Assembly: GCA_902779075.1 (NCBI GenBank)
Contig: CACZAK010000180.1
Span: forward strand, 1 to 8,858
Direction of reading: 5' to 3'
Length of the DNA stretch: 8,858 nucleotides
Source: an uncultured bacterium
Lineage (GTDB): Bacteria; Verrucomicrobiota; Kiritimatiellia; RFP12; UBA1067
The notes below the pieces were generated by a model that searched no databases, was not told the origin of the DNA, and saw only the letters and a list, made by a program, of their open reading frames with translations. Position 1 is the stretch's first letter. The number at the start of each line of letters is the position of its first letter. The position numbers were made by a program, and so were the translations under genes. This document shows, piece after piece, positions 1-8,716 of this stretch.

Positions 1-894
<894 letters not shown>

Positions 895-895
895 T

Positions 896-923
896 GGTAG
901 GGCCCGCGCCCCGCGCGCGCCGC
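896..923 (+). repeat. 28-bp GC-palindromic element, copy A
   Basis: It starts one base after the paaK stop with the head GGTAGGG and ends CCGC followed by AAA. Positions 6-14 of the element can pair with positions 18-26 around a 3-base loop, with one C-C mismatch (element positions 9/23). It is 24/28 identical to copy B, which begins 14 bases further on. There is no T-run after it, so it is not an intrinsic terminator. Confidence 0.7.
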
Positions 924-936
924 AAAAAGAAAGAAC

Positions 937-964
937 GGTAGGGCCCGCTCGCCGAGCGGGCCGC
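937..964 (+). repeat. 28-bp GC-palindromic element, copy B (perfect hairpin)
   Basis: This is the second tandem copy, with the same GGTAGGG head and CCGCAAA tail. Bases 942-950 (GGCCCGCTC) and 954-962 (GAGCGGGCC) form a perfect 9-bp stem with a GCC loop. The tail runs directly into the Shine-Dalgarno sequence of the next gene, AAAGGAG at 965-971. Folded in mRNA, the hairpin would end three bases before that site, so it could influence translation or mark a 3' end of the paaK message. No U-tract follows. Confidence 0.75.
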
Positions 965-978
965 AAAGGAGAAAATCA

Positions 979-3397: not shown

Positions 3398-6300
3398 TCA
3401 CTCCCAGATTGCGTAGATGCTCAGGGTCTTGCCTTCGGTCGTGGCGTTCTTGACCCACTCGCCGTCGAGCTTCCAGACCTTGCCCGCGTCGGCGTTCGCC
3501 TTGTTGGAGCCCCAGCCCCTGAATGTCGTGCCCGGACGCTCCCAGCCGAGCGCGGCGATTGAGGAGAGCTTCGTCGAAACGCCGCACTCGTACCCGAGCG
3601 TCCGCCACTTGCCCGTACCGTCGTTCTTGTTGAAGCGGATCTGGTAGTAGCCCGGCTTCAGCTCCCAAACGGCATAGACGGTGATGACCTCGCCCGCCTT
3701 CACGGGCGTCGAGACATACGCCCAGTCGCCCTTCCACACTTTCCCAGCAGCCGCGTCGGCGGTCGTGAGCGCCCAGCCCTTGAACGCATAGCCGCGCCGC
3801 GCCCAGCCGAGTCCGTTCGCCAGGGACGGCATGCGCGTCTTCTCGCCGTAGTTGAACCCGACCGTCCGCCATGTGCCCGCGCCGTCGTTGCGGATGAACT
3901 CGATGGCGTAGCTGCCCGGCTTCAACGCCCAAACCGCGTAGACGTCCAGCGTCTTGCCGACAGCCGCGGCAGTTGTGACAACCGCCCAGTCCTTCTTCCA
4001 CACCTTCCCGGCATCGGCGTTCGCCCGGCTCGTCGCCCAGCCGAGGAAGTCGAGTCCGCGCCGCGCCCAGCCCAGCGAGTTGAGCGACGGCAGATGCATC
4101 TCCTCGCCGTAGTCGAAGTCGTACGCCGCCGTCTTCTCGTCGCTCGCGTCGTTGCGGTGGAAATGCACCGTGTAGCCGGCGTCAGACCAGTGCGCGTAGT
4201 ACGTCACGCTGCTGTTGACAACCGTGGTCGAATAGACCTGCACGCCGCCCACGGAAGCCGTGAACCACCCCAAAAACCAATATCCCGTCCGCGTAGGCGT
4301 GGGCAACGTCCCGACCGCCTTGCCGCAGGACACATTGCGAGTCGTGGGCGTCACGCTACCGCCGTTCGCGTTGAACGTCACCGTATAGGAGCCGTCGCCG
4401 GGATCGACCCCTCCGTTCGCCGTCCAGTGCGCGTAAAAAGTCTGCGCGGTTGTCACACGGGCAATGGACTCCACCCTCGTGCCGCCGGTCCTCGCCGTCC
4501 ACCAGCCCGCGAACGTGTAGCCCGGACGCGTCGGCGTCGGGAACGCCTCCACCGCCGTGCCAATGACGCAGTTCCAGTGGTCTGGCGACACGCTACCGCC
4601 GTTCGCGTTGAACGTGATGAGCACCGTCCTATCCGGCGACAGCCACACGGCGTACATCGGAACGTCCGCGCCGTCGGACGTCGCGAGGTTCCTCACCGCC
4701 TGTCCGTCGCGGAACGCAACGTTTCCTGCCGCCGCGTCCACCTGCGAAAGCGCCCAGCCCGCGAAATTGTAGCCCGCCCGCCTGAATGCGCACGGCCACA
4801 GGTTCTGCGTCTCGCCGACGGCGATGGTCTGGGAGTCCATGAAGCCGTTGCCGCCGTTGGCGTCGAACCGCACCGAGTAGCCCGCGCCCGCCCAGCGCGC
4901 ATAAAGATTGACGATCTTGCCCTGCACTTCCTCCAGGTTTATCACGAGATTGTTCTCGTAGTAGCGGACCTCGCCGCTCGGCTCAGTGGCCCAACCGGCG
5001 AACTGGAAGCCAGTCCGCGTGAACTCGTTCGAGGCCAACGCATCGTAATCGTCGAATATGAAGGACTGGTCCGGCATCGTGCCCGATCCGCCGTTCGGAT
5101 TGAACCGCACGTAGTACGTGATCGGCTGCCAGTGCGCGAACAGCTCCATGTCCGCCGCAGGGACCTCGGTCGCCTCGGTCATGCGGACGCCTAATACGGG
5201 CTCCGTCCACCAGCCCTGGAACGTGTAGCCGCGCCGCGTCGGATCGGGGAGCTCCTGGAACGTATCCCCGGGCACGTACTCCTGCGAATCGGGGACGACC
5301 GGCCGACCGCCGTTCGCGTTGAACGTGGCCATCATCCGCTCTCCATCCTCGCGCCAGTGGGCGTAGAGCGTATGCCCGTGCGGCGTCGTCACGAACGTCT
5401 TGGACGTCACCTGCGCGCCGCCGACCGACGCCGTCCACCACCCCTGGAACTTCCATCCGGGACGCGTCGGTTCAGGATTCGGCAAGTTGTATTGCGTATC
5501 CATTATCTGATCCTGGGTCGACGTCTCGCCGCCTGACTTGTCGAACCACCCGCCGTTCGCGTGGAAGATCACGTCATACGGCTGGGGAGCCCAGTACGTA
5601 ATCGGGTAATGGCAGCTGCCATCCACGGGCCAGCCGCCATCCGGTAGCCTGCGCGATCCCTGGCGCCCGTCCCAGCTGCGCGAGCCTTCCTCCACCTTTG
5701 TGGTCATGTCTCCGGAGATTGCGGCGTATGCCTCCAGATCGTACTCCGGGGCGTTGCCCATGAAATGGAGCACGTTCTCTATTTCACGCCCACTGACCGG
5801 AACGGTGCGCCCGCTGAAGAAGTATTTGCCGAGATGTCCCACGCTTGCCGGCACGGTCATCGTCTCGAGCATCGAGCAGCCGTAGAAGGCGTAGTCGGGA
5901 AGCGCAGTAAGACTCTTCGAAAGCGTCACGTTCCAGAGTGCGGTACAGCCCTGGAACACGGACTCGCCCATCCCGGTCACGCTGTCCGGCACCACGAACG
6001 CCGTAAGCGACGTGCAGTTCAGGAACGCCCGCGCCCCGATGTTCGTCACCGTGGACGGGATCATGGACATGTTCATCTGAAACGCCCTTCCTCTTAGCGC
6101 GCCGCAGCCCGCGAACATGTCGTCCATCACATACGTCTCGCCGTCGGCGACCTCGACCGTCTCGATCTTCGCGTAGGAGGCCGGGAAAAGGTCCTGCAGC
6201 GTCTTGATGTGCGTAGGCACCTTTACGCCCCGGATGTTCCTGCATCCGGAGAACGCATTTTCGCCGACATTCGTCACCGTGGACGGCAGCTGCACCGATG

Positions 6301-8542
6301 TGATGTCCCAGCATTCTTCGAACGCATTCGAGCCGATGTCCACCAGCCCGTCCGCGAACAGCGCCAGCATCAGGGACGAGCAACCGCGGAACGCCCTCGG
6401 GCCCACTCGGAGCAGAGCCGAGGGGAAAGACGCCTCGTGGAGCCACGAACTGTCCTCGAACGCCCCGCTGGCGATGTACCTGAGCGATTCCGGCATTACA
6501 ACCTTTTCAAGGTCGAACATCTCCACGAACACGCCGCGACCGATGCCGACGATCCCTTCCGGGATCGTCACAGACGCCGCATTGCGGTTCTGGTAGTCCA
6601 GTATCCAATTGTTGTAGATCAAGAAACCGTCTGCATCATACTTGCCTTCTACCGTTGATCTGATTTTGGGCGGCAGATCGTCGATCCCGAACTCCACGAG
6701 CGTCGAAGGCCACGTCACAGAGGTGATATTATCACACCCGTTGAAGAACCCAACCGGCAGTTCCATAATGCCATCCACCAGCTCCACCGTAGTCATCGTT
6801 GCGTAGTCGTTTGGATACAACTGCTTCATCGTCTTGCCGCCCATCTTGGAAACGGAGATTGAATCGCCATACCGCTTCCACTGAGCCGTGTAAGTCACGT
6901 CATTCGCCGGAACCGTCGCCGCCACGGCGGGAGACCATCCCGCGAAAGTACACCATTCTCTCGTCACCGTCGGCGCAACTATCGCCGATCCATAGTTCTG
7001 CGTATTCACGATCCTTGGTAGGGCGCGATCACCGAGCGCGCCGCCATTCCCTTCAAACGTGACAGTGTATTGGTTGATTTTCCACTGCGCGACGCAGGTT
7101 GTATTGTTCGCAGGCATCGTTGAGGGAACGTCTGGTAACCAGCCCATGAATGTGTAACCTTCCCGCGTTGGATTCGCAGGCGGTGTGATCGTACTCGCGT
7201 AATCCTGCGTGATGGGTTTCACCGTGGTGCCGCCAACCGAATTGAAAGTCATCGTGTACTGGTTGATTTGCCATTGGGCGGTACAAGTTATATTGTTGGC
7301 CGGCATCGTCGAAGGAACAGCTGGTGACCAGCCTGTGAACGTGTAGCCTTCGCGTTCCGGATTTGCGGGGCGCGTGATCGCACTCTCGAAATCCTGCGTG
7401 ATGGGCTTCACCGTCGTGCCACCAGCCGAGTTGAACGAAACTGTGTACTGGTTGATCTGCCACTGCGCCGTATATGTCGTGTCGCCCGTCGGCACCGTCT
7501 CGGGTACCGACGGCGACCAGCCCGTAAACGTATAGCCCTCGCGCTTCACCGTTGGTACAACTATGGTACTTCCACGATCCAGGATGTTGCTAACACTACT
7601 TTTACCGCCATTAGCATCAAATACAACAATCTGGTCTATGTAGTCTATTGGCAAGCCCTCCCAATTTCCCGGAACAGTTATACCCCAGCCCGAAGATAAG
7701 CGCCGAACATGAACACTACATTCATTGGCCACACCAGAGAATACCGATGAACTCATCGAGGGAGCATTGCCCTCAAATATCACGTTCGTCAAACCACTAC
7801 AACCGTCAAATGCACCAGCCCAGATGTGTGTTACACCTTTGCCAATTTTTACGCTAGAAAGACCTCTACAATTTCTAAACGCGTGCGATCCGATTCGTGT
7901 GACGCTGTCCGGTACCGTCACACGAACAAGATTAGTGCAACTATAGAAAGCTTGATCTCCTATGGTCGTCACACTGGATGGAATCGTCACACTCATCAAA
8001 CCACTACAATCTTGGAACATACAATCCCAGATGCGCGTTGCACCCTCATCGATCGTCACATTCGTCAGCCCGATACAACGCAAGAACGCCCCCGACCCCA
8101 TGCTCGTTACACTTGCTGGGATTGTCACGCTTGTTAAGCTCCAACAATCATAAAATGCATGTAATCCGACACTCTTCACACTGGTGGGGATTGACAATCT
8201 CTTCAGGCCACTACATCCTTCAAACGCGCCATCTCCGAGACTCGTCACGCTAGAGGGAATCGTCACACTCGTCAGCCCACTACATTCGTAAAACGCATAA
8301 TCCCCGATGCTCGTCACGGGCTTGCCGCCGAGCGTGGAGGGAATCGTCACTGCACCCGTGGGCTTAGGCGAGACGCATGGTGTATAGCCATAGTAGCTAC
8401 CAGAATTGCGTGACCCATAAATCTCCGCCGTGTCGCCGTTGATCCGATATGTCCACGTGTAGCCGCCGACCGTCGCCGTATCGGCCCACGCGCCAAACAC
8501 CACGGCAACCGCCGCGACCATCATCATCAGTTTCGTTTTCAT
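3398..8542 (-). CDS. Giant secreted BspA-type LRR / InlB B-repeat protein
   Basis: This 1714-residue exported protein is probably cell-surface or secreted and involved in binding or adhesion; the specific ligand is unknown. It starts MKTKLMMMVAAVAVVFGAWA, a signal peptide with a likely cut after residue 20. A strand segment GGYTWTYRINGDTAEIY (26-42) follows. Next come LRR_5/BspA-type repeats (65-279, 23-residue period), four InlB B repeats of the FNxNGG...GYTFxGW...YxAxW type (304-556), a second LRR_5 block (557-935), a linker (936-985), six more InlB B repeats (986-1452) and three related C-terminal variant units (1453-1714). The protein ends directly after the last AIWE. No LPXTG, PEP-CTERM, Por-secretion tail, transmembrane helix or enzyme domain is visible. 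The ATG at 8542 is chosen because GAAGGGA (8557-8551) lies 8 bases upstream and a signal peptide begins there; an in-frame extension to 8698 reads through GC-rich repeat DNA and is unlikely. The N-terminal third is noticeably more AT-rich than the rest. A 28-bp palindromic element is embedded in frame (residues 500-509). Confidence 0.93.
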   Translation of the reverse strand: MKTKLMMMVAAVAVVFGAWADTATVGGYTWTYRINGDTAEIYGSRNSGSYYGYTPCVSPKPTGAVTIPSTLGGKPVTSIGDYAFYECSGLTSVTIPSSVTSLGDGAFEGCSGLKRLSIPTSVKSVGLHAFYDCWSLTSVTIPASVTSMGSGAFLRCIGLTNVTIDEGATRIWDCMFQDCSGLMSVTIPSSVTTIGDQAFYSCTNLVRVTVPDSVTRIGSHAFRNCRGLSSVKIGKGVTHIWAGAFDGCSGLTNVIFEGNAPSMSSSVFSGVANECSVHVRRLSSGWGITVPGNWEGLPIDYIDQIVVFDANGGKSSVSNILDRGSTIVVPTVKREGYTFTGWSPSVPETVPTGDTTYTAQWQINQYTVSFNSAGGTTVKPITQDFESAITRPANPEREGYTFTGWSPAVPSTMPANNITCTAQWQINQYTMTFNSVGGTTVKPITQDYASTITPPANPTREGYTFMGWLPDVPSTMPANNTTCVAQWKINQYTVTFEGNGGALGDRALPRIVNTQNYGSAIVAPTVTREWCTFAGWSPAVAATVPANDVTYTAQWKRYGDSISVSKMGGKTMKQLYPNDYATMTTVELVDGIMELPVGFFNGCDNITSVTWPSTLVEFGIDDLPPKIRSTVEGKYDADGFLIYNNWILDYQNRNAASVTIPEGIVGIGRGVFVEMFDLEKVVMPESLRYIASGAFEDSSWLHEASFPSALLRVGPRAFRGCSSLMLALFADGLVDIGSNAFEECWDITSVQLPSTVTNVGENAFSGCRNIRGVKVPTHIKTLQDLFPASYAKIETVEVADGETYVMDDMFAGCGALRGRAFQMNMSMIPSTVTNIGARAFLNCTSLTAFVVPDSVTGMGESVFQGCTALWNVTLSKSLTALPDYAFYGCSMLETMTVPASVGHLGKYFFSGRTVPVSGREIENVLHFMGNAPEYDLEAYAAISGDMTTKVEEGSRSWDGRQGSRRLPDGGWPVDGSCHYPITYWAPQPYDVIFHANGGWFDKSGGETSTQDQIMDTQYNLPNPEPTRPGWKFQGWWTASVGGAQVTSKTFVTTPHGHTLYAHWREDGERMMATFNANGGRPVVPDSQEYVPGDTFQELPDPTRRGYTFQGWWTEPVLGVRMTEATEVPAADMELFAHWQPITYYVRFNPNGGSGTMPDQSFIFDDYDALASNEFTRTGFQFAGWATEPSGEVRYYENNLVINLEEVQGKIVNLYARWAGAGYSVRFDANGGNGFMDSQTIAVGETQNLWPCAFRRAGYNFAGWALSQVDAAAGNVAFRDGQAVRNLATSDGADVPMYAVWLSPDRTVLITFNANGGSVSPDHWNCVIGTAVEAFPTPTRPGYTFAGWWTARTGGTRVESIARVTTAQTFYAHWTANGGVDPGDGSYTVTFNANGGSVTPTTRNVSCGKAVGTLPTPTRTGYWFLGWFTASVGGVQVYSTTVVNSSVTYYAHWSDAGYTVHFHRNDASDEKTAAYDFDYGEEMHLPSLNSLGWARRGLDFLGWATSRANADAGKVWKKDWAVVTTAAAVGKTLDVYAVWALKPGSYAIEFIRNDGAGTWRTVGFNYGEKTRMPSLANGLGWARRGYAFKGWALTTADAAAGKVWKGDWAYVSTPVKAGEVITVYAVWELKPGYYQIRFNKNDGTGKWRTLGYECGVSTKLSSIAALGWERPGTTFRGWGSNKANADAGKVWKLDGEWVKNATTEGKTLSIYAIWE
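3401..4186 (-). repeat. C-terminal variant repeats, three units, residues 1453-1714
   Basis: Three units of about 82-88 residues start near 1457, 1545 and 1633. They relate to InlB B repeats but carry RNDG/KNDG in place of NANGG, a LGWxRxG core, and a conserved ADAGKVWKxDW segment followed by YAVW/YAIW. The protein stops at the end of the third unit. Their position and shared divergence make them a candidate surface-retention or export module (inference); no known anchor motif is present. Confidence 0.8.
4187..5587 (-). repeat. InlB B-repeat block B, six units, residues 986-1452
   Basis: Six further units begin near residues 988, 1071, 1143, 1222, 1307 and 1386, recognised by F(N/D/H)xNGG, GYTFxGWW and YAHW/YARW/YAVW. 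They are longer (about 67-80 residues) than block A because of a loop after GWW (for example TASVGGAQV). A short Gly-rich hinge NGGVDPGDGS (1375-1384) sits before the last unit. Confidence 0.92.
4352..4615 (-). repeat. Exact 27-bp direct repeat within InlB block B
   Basis: Bases 4352-4378 and 4589-4615 are identical over 27 bp, 237 bp apart in the same frame. A 21-bp part recurs at 5306-5326. They encode the TFNANGGSV start of separate units. Identity at wobble positions indicates recent duplication or gene conversion. Confidence 0.85.
5588..5737 (-). other. Non-repeat linker, residues 936-985
   Basis: This 50-residue stretch is rich in Ser, Arg, Asp and Gly (EEGSRSWDGRQGSRRLPDGGW) and resembles neither repeat type. 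It separates the second LRR block from InlB block B and is probably a hinge or terminal cap. Confidence 0.6.
5738..6874 (-). repeat. LRR_5 repeat block 2, residues 557-935
   Basis: This is a second, more divergent leucine-rich region with recognisable units such as LPSTVTNVGENAFSGCRNI (752-770) and VPDSVTGMGESVFQGCTAL (851-869). Two special inserts of about 22 residues (570-591 and 780-801) share the pattern T(M/L)xxL(F/Y)PxxYAxxxTVExxDG and appear to open sub-blocks. The block ends with HFMGNAPEYD, matching the closing GNAP of block 1. Confidence 0.88.
7017..7044 (-). repeat. 28-bp palindromic element, copy C, inside the coding region
   Basis: Read on the + strand it carries the same GGTAGGG head and CCGC tail as copies A and B and is 24/28 identical to B. 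The stem pair at element positions 9/23 is G-C here instead of C-G in B, a pairing-preserving double change; 12/20 is an A-G mismatch. It lies in frame in the fourth InlB repeat, encoding GGALGDRALP (residues 500-509). Confidence 0.72.
7071..7448 (-). repeat. Two 189-bp tandem repeats
   Basis: Units 7071-7259 and 7260-7448 are direct repeats of 189 bp, equal to 63 codons. Both begin tggttgatt on the + strand, and a third start of the same motif is at 7449. They encode the middle InlB B repeats, which share the peptide GGTTVKPITQD. Many third positions differ, so the duplication is not brand new. Confidence 0.85.
7706..8350 (-). repeat. LRR_5 (BspA-type) repeat block 1, residues 65-279
   Basis: Nine consecutive leucine-rich units are visible. 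The first is slightly longer; from residue 93 they start exactly every 23 residues (93, 116, 139, 162, 185, 208, 231, 254). The consensus is VTIPSSVTxIGxxAFxxCxGLxS, as in Treponema/Bacteroides BspA proteins. The last unit degrades into GNAPSMSSSVFSG and closes the solenoid. The DNA here is AT-richer than the 3' half of the gene. Confidence 0.93.
8483..8542 (-). other. Signal peptide of the surface protein
   Basis: Residues 1-20 have a lysine-containing N-region (MKTK), a hydrophobic core LMMMVAAVAVVFG and an AWA-D cleavage site fitting the A-x-A rule. This implies Sec-dependent export. The core contains no Cys, so a lipoprotein is not indicated. Confidence 0.88.
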
Positions 8543-8550
8543 TTTGCCAT

Positions 8551-8573: not shown

Positions 8574-8678
8574 TTTGCGGATCGGCGGGGTGCATCGCCC
8601 CACCGCGCGGCTCTCCCGGGGGTGGGGCGAGCCGTCCCCGGCGAACCGCTGCGGCTCACCCGGAGGGTTCTCCCTACC
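8574..8678 (-). repeat. Structured 105-nt GC-rich leader element, head GGTAGGG, tail CCGCAAA
   Basis: Read on the - strand this begins GGTAGGG and ends CCGCAAA, the same ends as intergenic copies A and B, but it is 105 nt long. It holds several inverted repeats. One is a 10-bp stem with two G-U pairs (8640-8649 with 8651-8660, minimal loop). Another is a perfect 10-bp pair, TCGCCCCACC (8621-8630 on the - strand) with GGTGGGGCGA (8595-8604), around 16 nt. A short stem at the head spans about 8662-8678. It lies between the predicted transcription start and the SD site, so it would form the 5' untranslated leader. Its function is unknown. Confidence 0.6.
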
Positions 8679-8716
8679 ATGCAGAATATGCCATTCATGG
8701 CGTGTCATTGGCGGTA

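Follow-up and report, generated by a model that had tools for sequence, protein, structure and literature searches.

A 28-bp palindromic element that occurs between genes in an 8,858-nucleotide stretch of DNA from an uncultured bacterium of the Kiritimatiellia (GenBank assembly GCA_902779075.1, contig CACZAK010000180.1; the whole stretch is referred to as the window) is also embedded in frame in a gene for a surface protein with leucine-rich and InlB-type repeats. The reading favored here, at a probability of about 0.86, is that the element belongs to the GTAG superfamily of repetitive extragenic palindromes (REPs), which vary between genomes and are kept in frame in tolerant protein loops, including that of an InlB repeat. 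The element has a GTAG tag followed by a 9-bp stem and a 3-nt loop, and its numerous copies include subtypes whose stems covary. In-gene copies would survive provided that they alter the length by a multiple of three overall, keep an open frame through the hairpin and fall in a loop or linker, a mode of selection suggested by the pattern in several enzymes. The copy at 7017-7044 lies in an InlB B-repeat, where it occupies the loop joining strands 1 and 2 and adds six residues.

The preliminary description of this DNA had proposed that the element is embedded in the fourth InlB repeat, where it reads GGALGDRALP, and that the same element lies between genes, and both statements hold. The coding copy, whose letters on the forward strand are GGTAGGGCGCGATCACCGAGCGCGCCGC, covers residues 501-510, and the intergenic copy at 937-964 belongs to what is a high-copy repeat in G001, the nearest genome compared (rumen metagenome-assembled genome RUG10619). 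Pattern GGTAGGGCSCGNTCNCCGAGCGSGCCGC finds three matches in the window at up to three mismatches (Table 1), and 200 shuffles of the window gave a mean of 0.00. The element has a 9-bp stem and a 3-nt loop, the coding variant pairing at 8 of 9 stem positions, and all three copies begin with GGTAG, which places a GTAG tag at one end of the palindrome. By a count made by eye, the coding copy and the copy at 937-964 are identical at 24 of 28 bases and are sibling variants; copies spelled like the coding one are common in G001.

Table 1. Coordinates of the element and of its surroundings in the window
Feature	Position	Strand	Remarks
GTAG-tagged REP-like palindrome within coding region (gene on -)	7017..7044	+	0 mismatches to consensus
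Codons for GGALGDRALP	7016..7045	-	Residues 501-510 of open reading frame (ORF) 3398-8545
Fourth InlB B-repeat	6875..7078	-	Residues 490-557 of ORF 3398-8545; insert in loop between strands 1 and 2
InlB B-repeats 1-3	7079..7639	-	Without insert; comparison set
LRR_5/InlB-repeat protein, host gene	3398..8542	-	1714 aa if start is MKTKLMMM
Intergenic copy between AMP-ligase and ACT-domain genes	937..964	+	0 mismatches to consensus
Second intergenic copy	896..923	+	2 mismatches to consensus; other stem, GGCCCGCGC/GCGCGCGCC
41-bp direct repeat enclosing both intergenic copies head to tail	885..966	+	

In Pfam, the full-length host protein matches Flg_new/List_Bact_rpt (PF09479, E 6.8e-113) and LRR_5. 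Its start codon and signal-like N-terminus were read by eye, and the true start may lie further upstream. When seven of the protein's InlB repeats are aligned (Pfam counts 10 stretches), the fourth repeat carries 6-7 extra residues exactly at the element, where the six other repeats are gapped, which bears out the earlier observation that this repeat is longer precisely at the loop. The best of five AlphaFold2 models of the repeat, made from an input alignment of window repeats only, had a mean predicted local distance difference test score (pLDDT) of 87 (five models: 87, 86, 82, 65 and 65). The model has strands at residues 3-9 and 22-28, and the insert makes up the loop that joins them, with a mean pLDDT of 62 over residues 11-20, and the best Foldseek match of the model is the InlB B-repeat 2y5p, with a template modeling score of 0.72. 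As modeled, the insert is compatible with an intact InlB B-repeat fold.

Copies of the element are abundant in G001, where the 26-base core occurs 155 times exactly (82 forward, 73 reverse) and where 207 copies are found at up to two mismatches. At least one exact core copy is present in 22 of 59 genomes, G001 included, and the reversed control gave 0 in all 59; four genomes of the same genus (G002, G003, G010 and G015) have no exact core copy. A scan of named genomes returned at least 113 stretches with the element. The 80 of these that were listed include many with Kiritimatiellae, Lentisphaerae or Verrucomicrobia in the title, several from ruminants, and three titled Zoogloeaceae or Deltaproteobacteria. 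The GTAG tag is tied to hairpins in general, with 165 hairpins at 1533 GTAG tags in 90 G001 loci versus 6-23 hairpins for six control tags occurring 224-3958 times each; most of these loci were preselected for the main element, which inflates the GTAG excess, although the other stem types were not asked for. A scan that searched for pairing found many paired stem types in G001, for example GGCGCGCTC/GAGCGCGCC, GGCCCGCTC/GAGCGGGCC, GGCGGTCGC/GCGACCGCC and GGCCGCCTC/GAGGCGGCC, and complementary stem changes also occur at homologous sites outside that scan, in glutamate synthase and at the InlB site of G009. Copies that lie close together in G001 are arranged head to tail in 25 of 26 pairs. One subtype, GTAGGGGCCGACCACCGGGCGGCCC (12 copies in the G001 loci), would read V-G-A-D-H-R-A-A, which is like the VGADHRAA that adjoins GALGDRALP in several ORFs.

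The location of the copies relative to genes was followed for 100 of the 207 places in G001 (93 with no mismatch and 7 with one), all of which were fetched; copies nearby brought the number to 119 distinct ones at up to two mismatches, and overlapping loci (L023, L030, L034, L036, L040, L045 and L046) were omitted, their places being covered by others. A frame was regarded as coding-like if it spanned at least 150 codons with a positive codon score on both sides. By this measure 69 of the 119 copies lie outside coding-like frames, and the other 50 are spread over 35 ORFs. The 50 read as GALG[DE]RALP-type (22), AARS..APYQ-type (13), GRARSPSAP-type (12), VG.ARRA-type (2) or otherwise (1). The same readings recur in the loci from named genomes, where 22 of 123 distinct exact copies, some of them from G001 itself (e.g., L140 and L163), pass a stricter codon score. 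Two pairs of similar G001 proteins share the site of the element (L077:1503-1527 with L095:1370-1394, and L053:1504-1528 with L098:1501-1525), and the two copies in the pair L077/L095 are different variants.

When 29 of the 35 host ORFs were scanned, the element was found inside a single Pfam domain match in 10, namely M20 peptidase, Glycos_transf_3 (pyrimidine nucleoside phosphorylase), NTP_transferase, M50, DUF3418, GATase_2 (glutamate synthase), DUF5703, arabinofuranosidase C, DUF1848 and GH106. For the remaining 19, the element was outside or between the best Pfam matches, could not be placed, or lay in an ORF for which no family was found. Comparison with solved structures shows the insert as a 10-residue gap in the phosphorylase (versus 1brw), an 8-residue gap in glutamate synthase (versus 7mfm), and 10 gapped residues in three pieces in the M20 peptidase (versus 3dlj); for the M50 protease, the element stretch lies beyond the parts aligned to the solved structure. 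Peptides of the LG(D/E)RALP form thus do occur inside otherwise alignable proteins, as had been anticipated. The preliminary description had further seen in the element a route to peptide diversity in exported proteins. In-frame peptides are indeed found, but a restriction to exported proteins is ruled out, as glutamate synthase, pyrimidine nucleoside phosphorylase and an M20 peptidase carry the element.

Comparison of near relatives reveals filled and empty versions of the same site. The glutamate synthase site could be read in 13 of 16 genomes of the genus (G007, G010 and G016 are without the site) and is filled in five of these and empty in eight, G002 being counted as empty by disregarding a weak 6-of-9 GCAG match. 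The number of hairpins is one in G001 and G013, two in G012 and G009, and three in G014, and the peptide ranges from PVFGDDIKK in the empty state to PEAAGAGRQPYQDSARSVIAPYQNAARPVSAPYQIDIKK in G014, yet all 13 sites read through in one open frame. Intergenic sites vary in the same manner. Upstream of the ACT-domain gene, where the window carries two copies in the spacer, G012 and G014 have a single copy apiece, and G001, G006 and G008 lack the element. No copy was seen in the other aligned spacers. Copies come and go among related rumen and gut Kiritimatiellae genomes.

The loop in pyrimidine nucleoside phosphorylase (L029 and L328-L341) can hold more than one kind of palindrome. At the DNA level it was read in 10 of 14 same-genus loci (G002, G010, G013 and G016 were left out), three of which have a GTAG hairpin (G001, G014 and G007), three an unrelated GGGCARRAYGCCCG-type palindrome (G012, G006 and G015, the last with a variant middle), and four neither palindrome (G004, G005, G008 and G009). 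Identity to G001 over 280 bases of flank is 94% for G012, 94% for G014 and 88% for G006, yet G012 holds the unrelated palindrome. When 120 listed homologues of 1103 were sorted by peptide patterns, the 17-residue loop was found in 41 (40 with the same letters), a GTAG-type peptide in 11, a GQ[DN]AR-type peptide in 64, and neither in 4. The second palindrome, ACGGGCARGAYGCCCGT, which reads as NGQDARCPS in several frames, is itself high-copy: G001 has 50 copies, G018 192 and G046 116, against 0 for the reversed control. These sites raise a broader idea, which we hold tentatively and as somewhat less than an even bet, that certain protein loops in gut Kiritimatiellae are landing sites for palindromes, where GTAG REPs of various stem types and at least one unrelated family, ACGGGCARGAYGCCCGT, displace one another, accumulate side by side and increase in number at a given loop of core enzymes and surface repeats within one genus, the hairpin being maintained by exchange between copies although it is translated. 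If so, mobile hairpins would keep altering short stretches of peptide in proteins that are conserved elsewhere.

At the InlB site itself, the element is present at the co-linear position in G001:C225 and G012:C54 and absent in G001:C210, G017 and G014 (a 39% homologue, G012:C172, was left out of this comparison), so that G001 holds the filled and the empty state in two genes. Of 613 InlB homologues 120 were listed, and 46 were kept on the basis of full coverage and at least 44% identity. The check proposed earlier, for presence or absence of the loop among homologues, yielded a +6 loop in 9 of the 46, the window's own protein (P0009) included, and all nine have REP-like peptides; five match the ALGxxALP pattern and four (ALGESAQP, GIGDAALP twice and GLVETALP) were judged by eye from the peptide. 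Homologues with an empty loop exist, and so do further intergenic copies, the two observations on which the preliminary description had made its interpretation depend. The DNA of filled genes was seen for four only (the window, G001:C225, G012 and G009). In G009:C54 a loop of equal length reads ALGESALP and has a diverged but paired stem, GGCGCTCTT/GAGAGCGCC, with one double compensatory change as judged by eye. This stem type occurs once in G009, in this gene; a stem type private to G009 is ruled out by one exact match in G001 and one match with a single mismatch in G006.

How the insert reached the window's gene can be weighed against the history of that gene. It is possible that the loop was never hit itself, and that the repeat was acquired from another surface gene through recombination, the REP having inserted once, elsewhere and long ago. 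This account is a serious contender, though we consider it rather less probable than its opposite. In its favor, the insert does not cluster on a tree of the LRR part, requiring 10 changes versus a shuffled mean of about 11, a result by which clustering was rejected; the row nearest to the window on that tree, 99% identical, is without the insert; and the nine +6 loops are equal in length and position. Moreover, at about position 6920 the window and G001:C210 (L047) meet at a sharp mosaic boundary, being almost identical on the C-terminal side and different over the preceding InlB array, which suggests array exchange. Taken together, the failure of the insert to follow the tree and the loss of similarity at the array suggest exchange of repeat arrays, which probably spread or removed the inserted repeat. 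What speaks against a single ancient event is that the site holds ALGDRALP, ALGERALP, ALGESALP, ALGESAQP, GIGDAALP and GLVETALP, hence probably different stem subtypes, and that the stem in G009 bears a double compensatory change; replacement or re-insertion is therefore needed besides exchange.

It could also be argued that the hairpin is a functional site at the level of DNA or RNA (a protein-binding, mRNA-stability or recombination signal) under selection, with the peptide as a by-product. Stem complementarity is kept across differing stem sequences, even inside genes, and the 18 codons around the InlB element show no third-position difference between the window and G001:C225, versus 73 differences at 212 flanking codons (p 0.001), or between the window and G012:C54, versus 77 of 212. 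This possibility is nonetheless improbable, as four same-genus genomes are without a single exact copy and orthologous sites are empty in many relatives. Between G001:C225 and G012:C54 the contrast is also not significant (0 of 18 versus 29 of 212; p 0.14). On one side, identity continues for about 20 nt beyond the element, which fits recent exchange equally well. The 56-nt identity block was accordingly rejected as proof of DNA constraint, given that the contrast fails in one of three pairs, that neighboring windows are also low and that exchange explains it equally; the identity around the element fits recent exchange or constraint. Chance resemblance of InlB codons to an intergenic hairpin draws some encouragement from the GC-rich genome and from native NGG codons, which supply part of the match, but its probability is negligible: it is refuted by the shuffle expectation and by the occurrence of the same peptide and the same DNA in unrelated proteins, and the extra residues fall exactly at the element.

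Several results weigh against the reading of these copies as in-frame REP insertions, or against parts of it. The InlB site has gained 18 nt net rather than 28-30, which means that there was no clean insertion into the empty loop of today; the proposal that an insertion was kept in frame in a tolerant loop is supported with this qualification. The net gain per single copy in glutamate synthase is 24 or 36 nt, and together these values indicate that insertion was unclean or that inserts were later trimmed. The closest empty allele, G001:C210, differs over the whole repeat array and hence does not provide a clean before-and-after pair. Tandem copies are spaced by a multiple of three in 9 of 10 coding pairs and in 6 of the 13 others, a difference that is only suggestive (Fisher p = 0.07; 3 mixed pairs omitted). 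The frame calls depend on codon scoring for which four genes of the window served as training set, and translation of the in-gene copies is predicted from the sequence. On the side of the transposases, the eight RAYT-like ORFs tested, which come from five genomes, all have the REP-associated tyrosine transposase (RAYT) model NF047646 as their best match but score below its 80-bit cut-off. A GTAG hairpin was found at 0 of 33 Y1_Tnp loci (flanks up to 1.5 kb; these loci are part of all Y1 hits found) versus 6 of 36 other loci, and the arrangement known as a REPtron, a RAYT gene flanked by these REPs, was therefore not encountered.

Mobilization in trans by RAYT-type HUH transposases would be the likeliest engine for the REPs, a proposal to which we give even odds. 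The combination of GTAG and a hairpin is, in the portion of the literature consulted, the substrate bound and cut by TnpA-REP enzymes (PMC8266576), and as far as that account goes the system resembles the present one in these two features and possibly in its transposase, RAYT-like Y1 genes being present and G001 having four Y1_Tnp genes; it differs in that none of the 33 loci has a RAYT gene flanked by these REPs. The copy number of the element is correlated with Y1 hits among 16 genomes (rho 0.62, p 0.01), a relationship that genome size alone could produce. In the scheme favored here, RAYT-type transposases acting in trans may have supplied the copies, and recombination of repeat arrays probably shuffled the inserted repeat among related surface proteins.

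The class to which the element is assigned has been described by Di Nocera et al. (2013; PMC3733652), in the main text of which GTAG REPs are elements of 20-40 bp with stems mostly of 6-9 bp, a short loop, covarying stem subfamilies and a high copy number, and are mostly intergenic. The window element conforms in its GTAG tag, its length of 28 bp, its 9-bp stem (6-13 bp in the class) and its short loop, and in being high-copy, dispersed and mainly intergenic, with complementary stem changes. According to the same text, some GTAG REPs lie inside ORFs, the verrucomicrobium Opitutus terrae having the most intragenic repeats, and their termini often supply a TAG stop to flanking ORFs. No such use of the TAG was found among 69 copies here (criteria: ORF of at least 80 aa, codon score above 8), in contrast to that description. 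Other departures from the REPs as described there are host ORFs that include InlB/LRR proteins, glycosidases and central enzymes, the head-to-tail order of close pairs, and a loop that can hold unrelated palindrome families in relatives.

Palindromes that are read in frame are known from other bacteria as well. Rickettsia palindromic elements (RPEs) lie in frame in many unrelated genes and are kept as peptides, and are about 150 bp long or CGTC-tagged, by the accounts in the parts of PMC3733652 and PMC10969869 consulted. The present element likewise lies in frame in many unrelated genes (50 of 119 copies in 35 ORFs by codon score) but is GTAG-tagged, 28 bp long and found in Kiritimatiellae-type genomes, with no CGTC tag or RPE sequence of about 150 bp. 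Palindromic amphipathic repeat coding elements (PARCEL; PMC2996958), compared by description only, are also palindromic repeats that code within proteins and differ in being intragenic tandem repeats of Mollicutes. REPs inside genes are therefore already published, as far as these sources go, for Opitutus terrae and as Rickettsia RPEs. What appears new relative to them is one loop with different stem types and unrelated palindromes in close relatives, and capture in InlB repeats; neither was found in Di Nocera et al. (2013) exclusive of its supplementary tables, and a literature search judged by titles and abstract openings found nothing on REPs in Kiritimatiellae. In-frame insertion of palindromes is best known from Rickettsia, and it is frequent here in large rumen and gut genomes and reaches core enzymes. 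Near relatives differ at one and the same site in whether it is filled, in how many copies it holds (one to three) and in which palindrome family occupies it, so that direct comparison can test whether new protein sequence comes from selfish hairpins and how such hairpins are tolerated.

Two further features of the window were observed. At 8650-8680, upstream of the surface-protein gene, lies a degenerate GTAG-tagged sequence that forms an inverted repeat with 894-924 (71% complementarity) and is possibly a decayed REP. Two small ORFs, at 1448-1720 and 1736-1986, lie between the ACT-domain and threonine synthase genes; they may resemble a DUF4160/DUF2442 pair.

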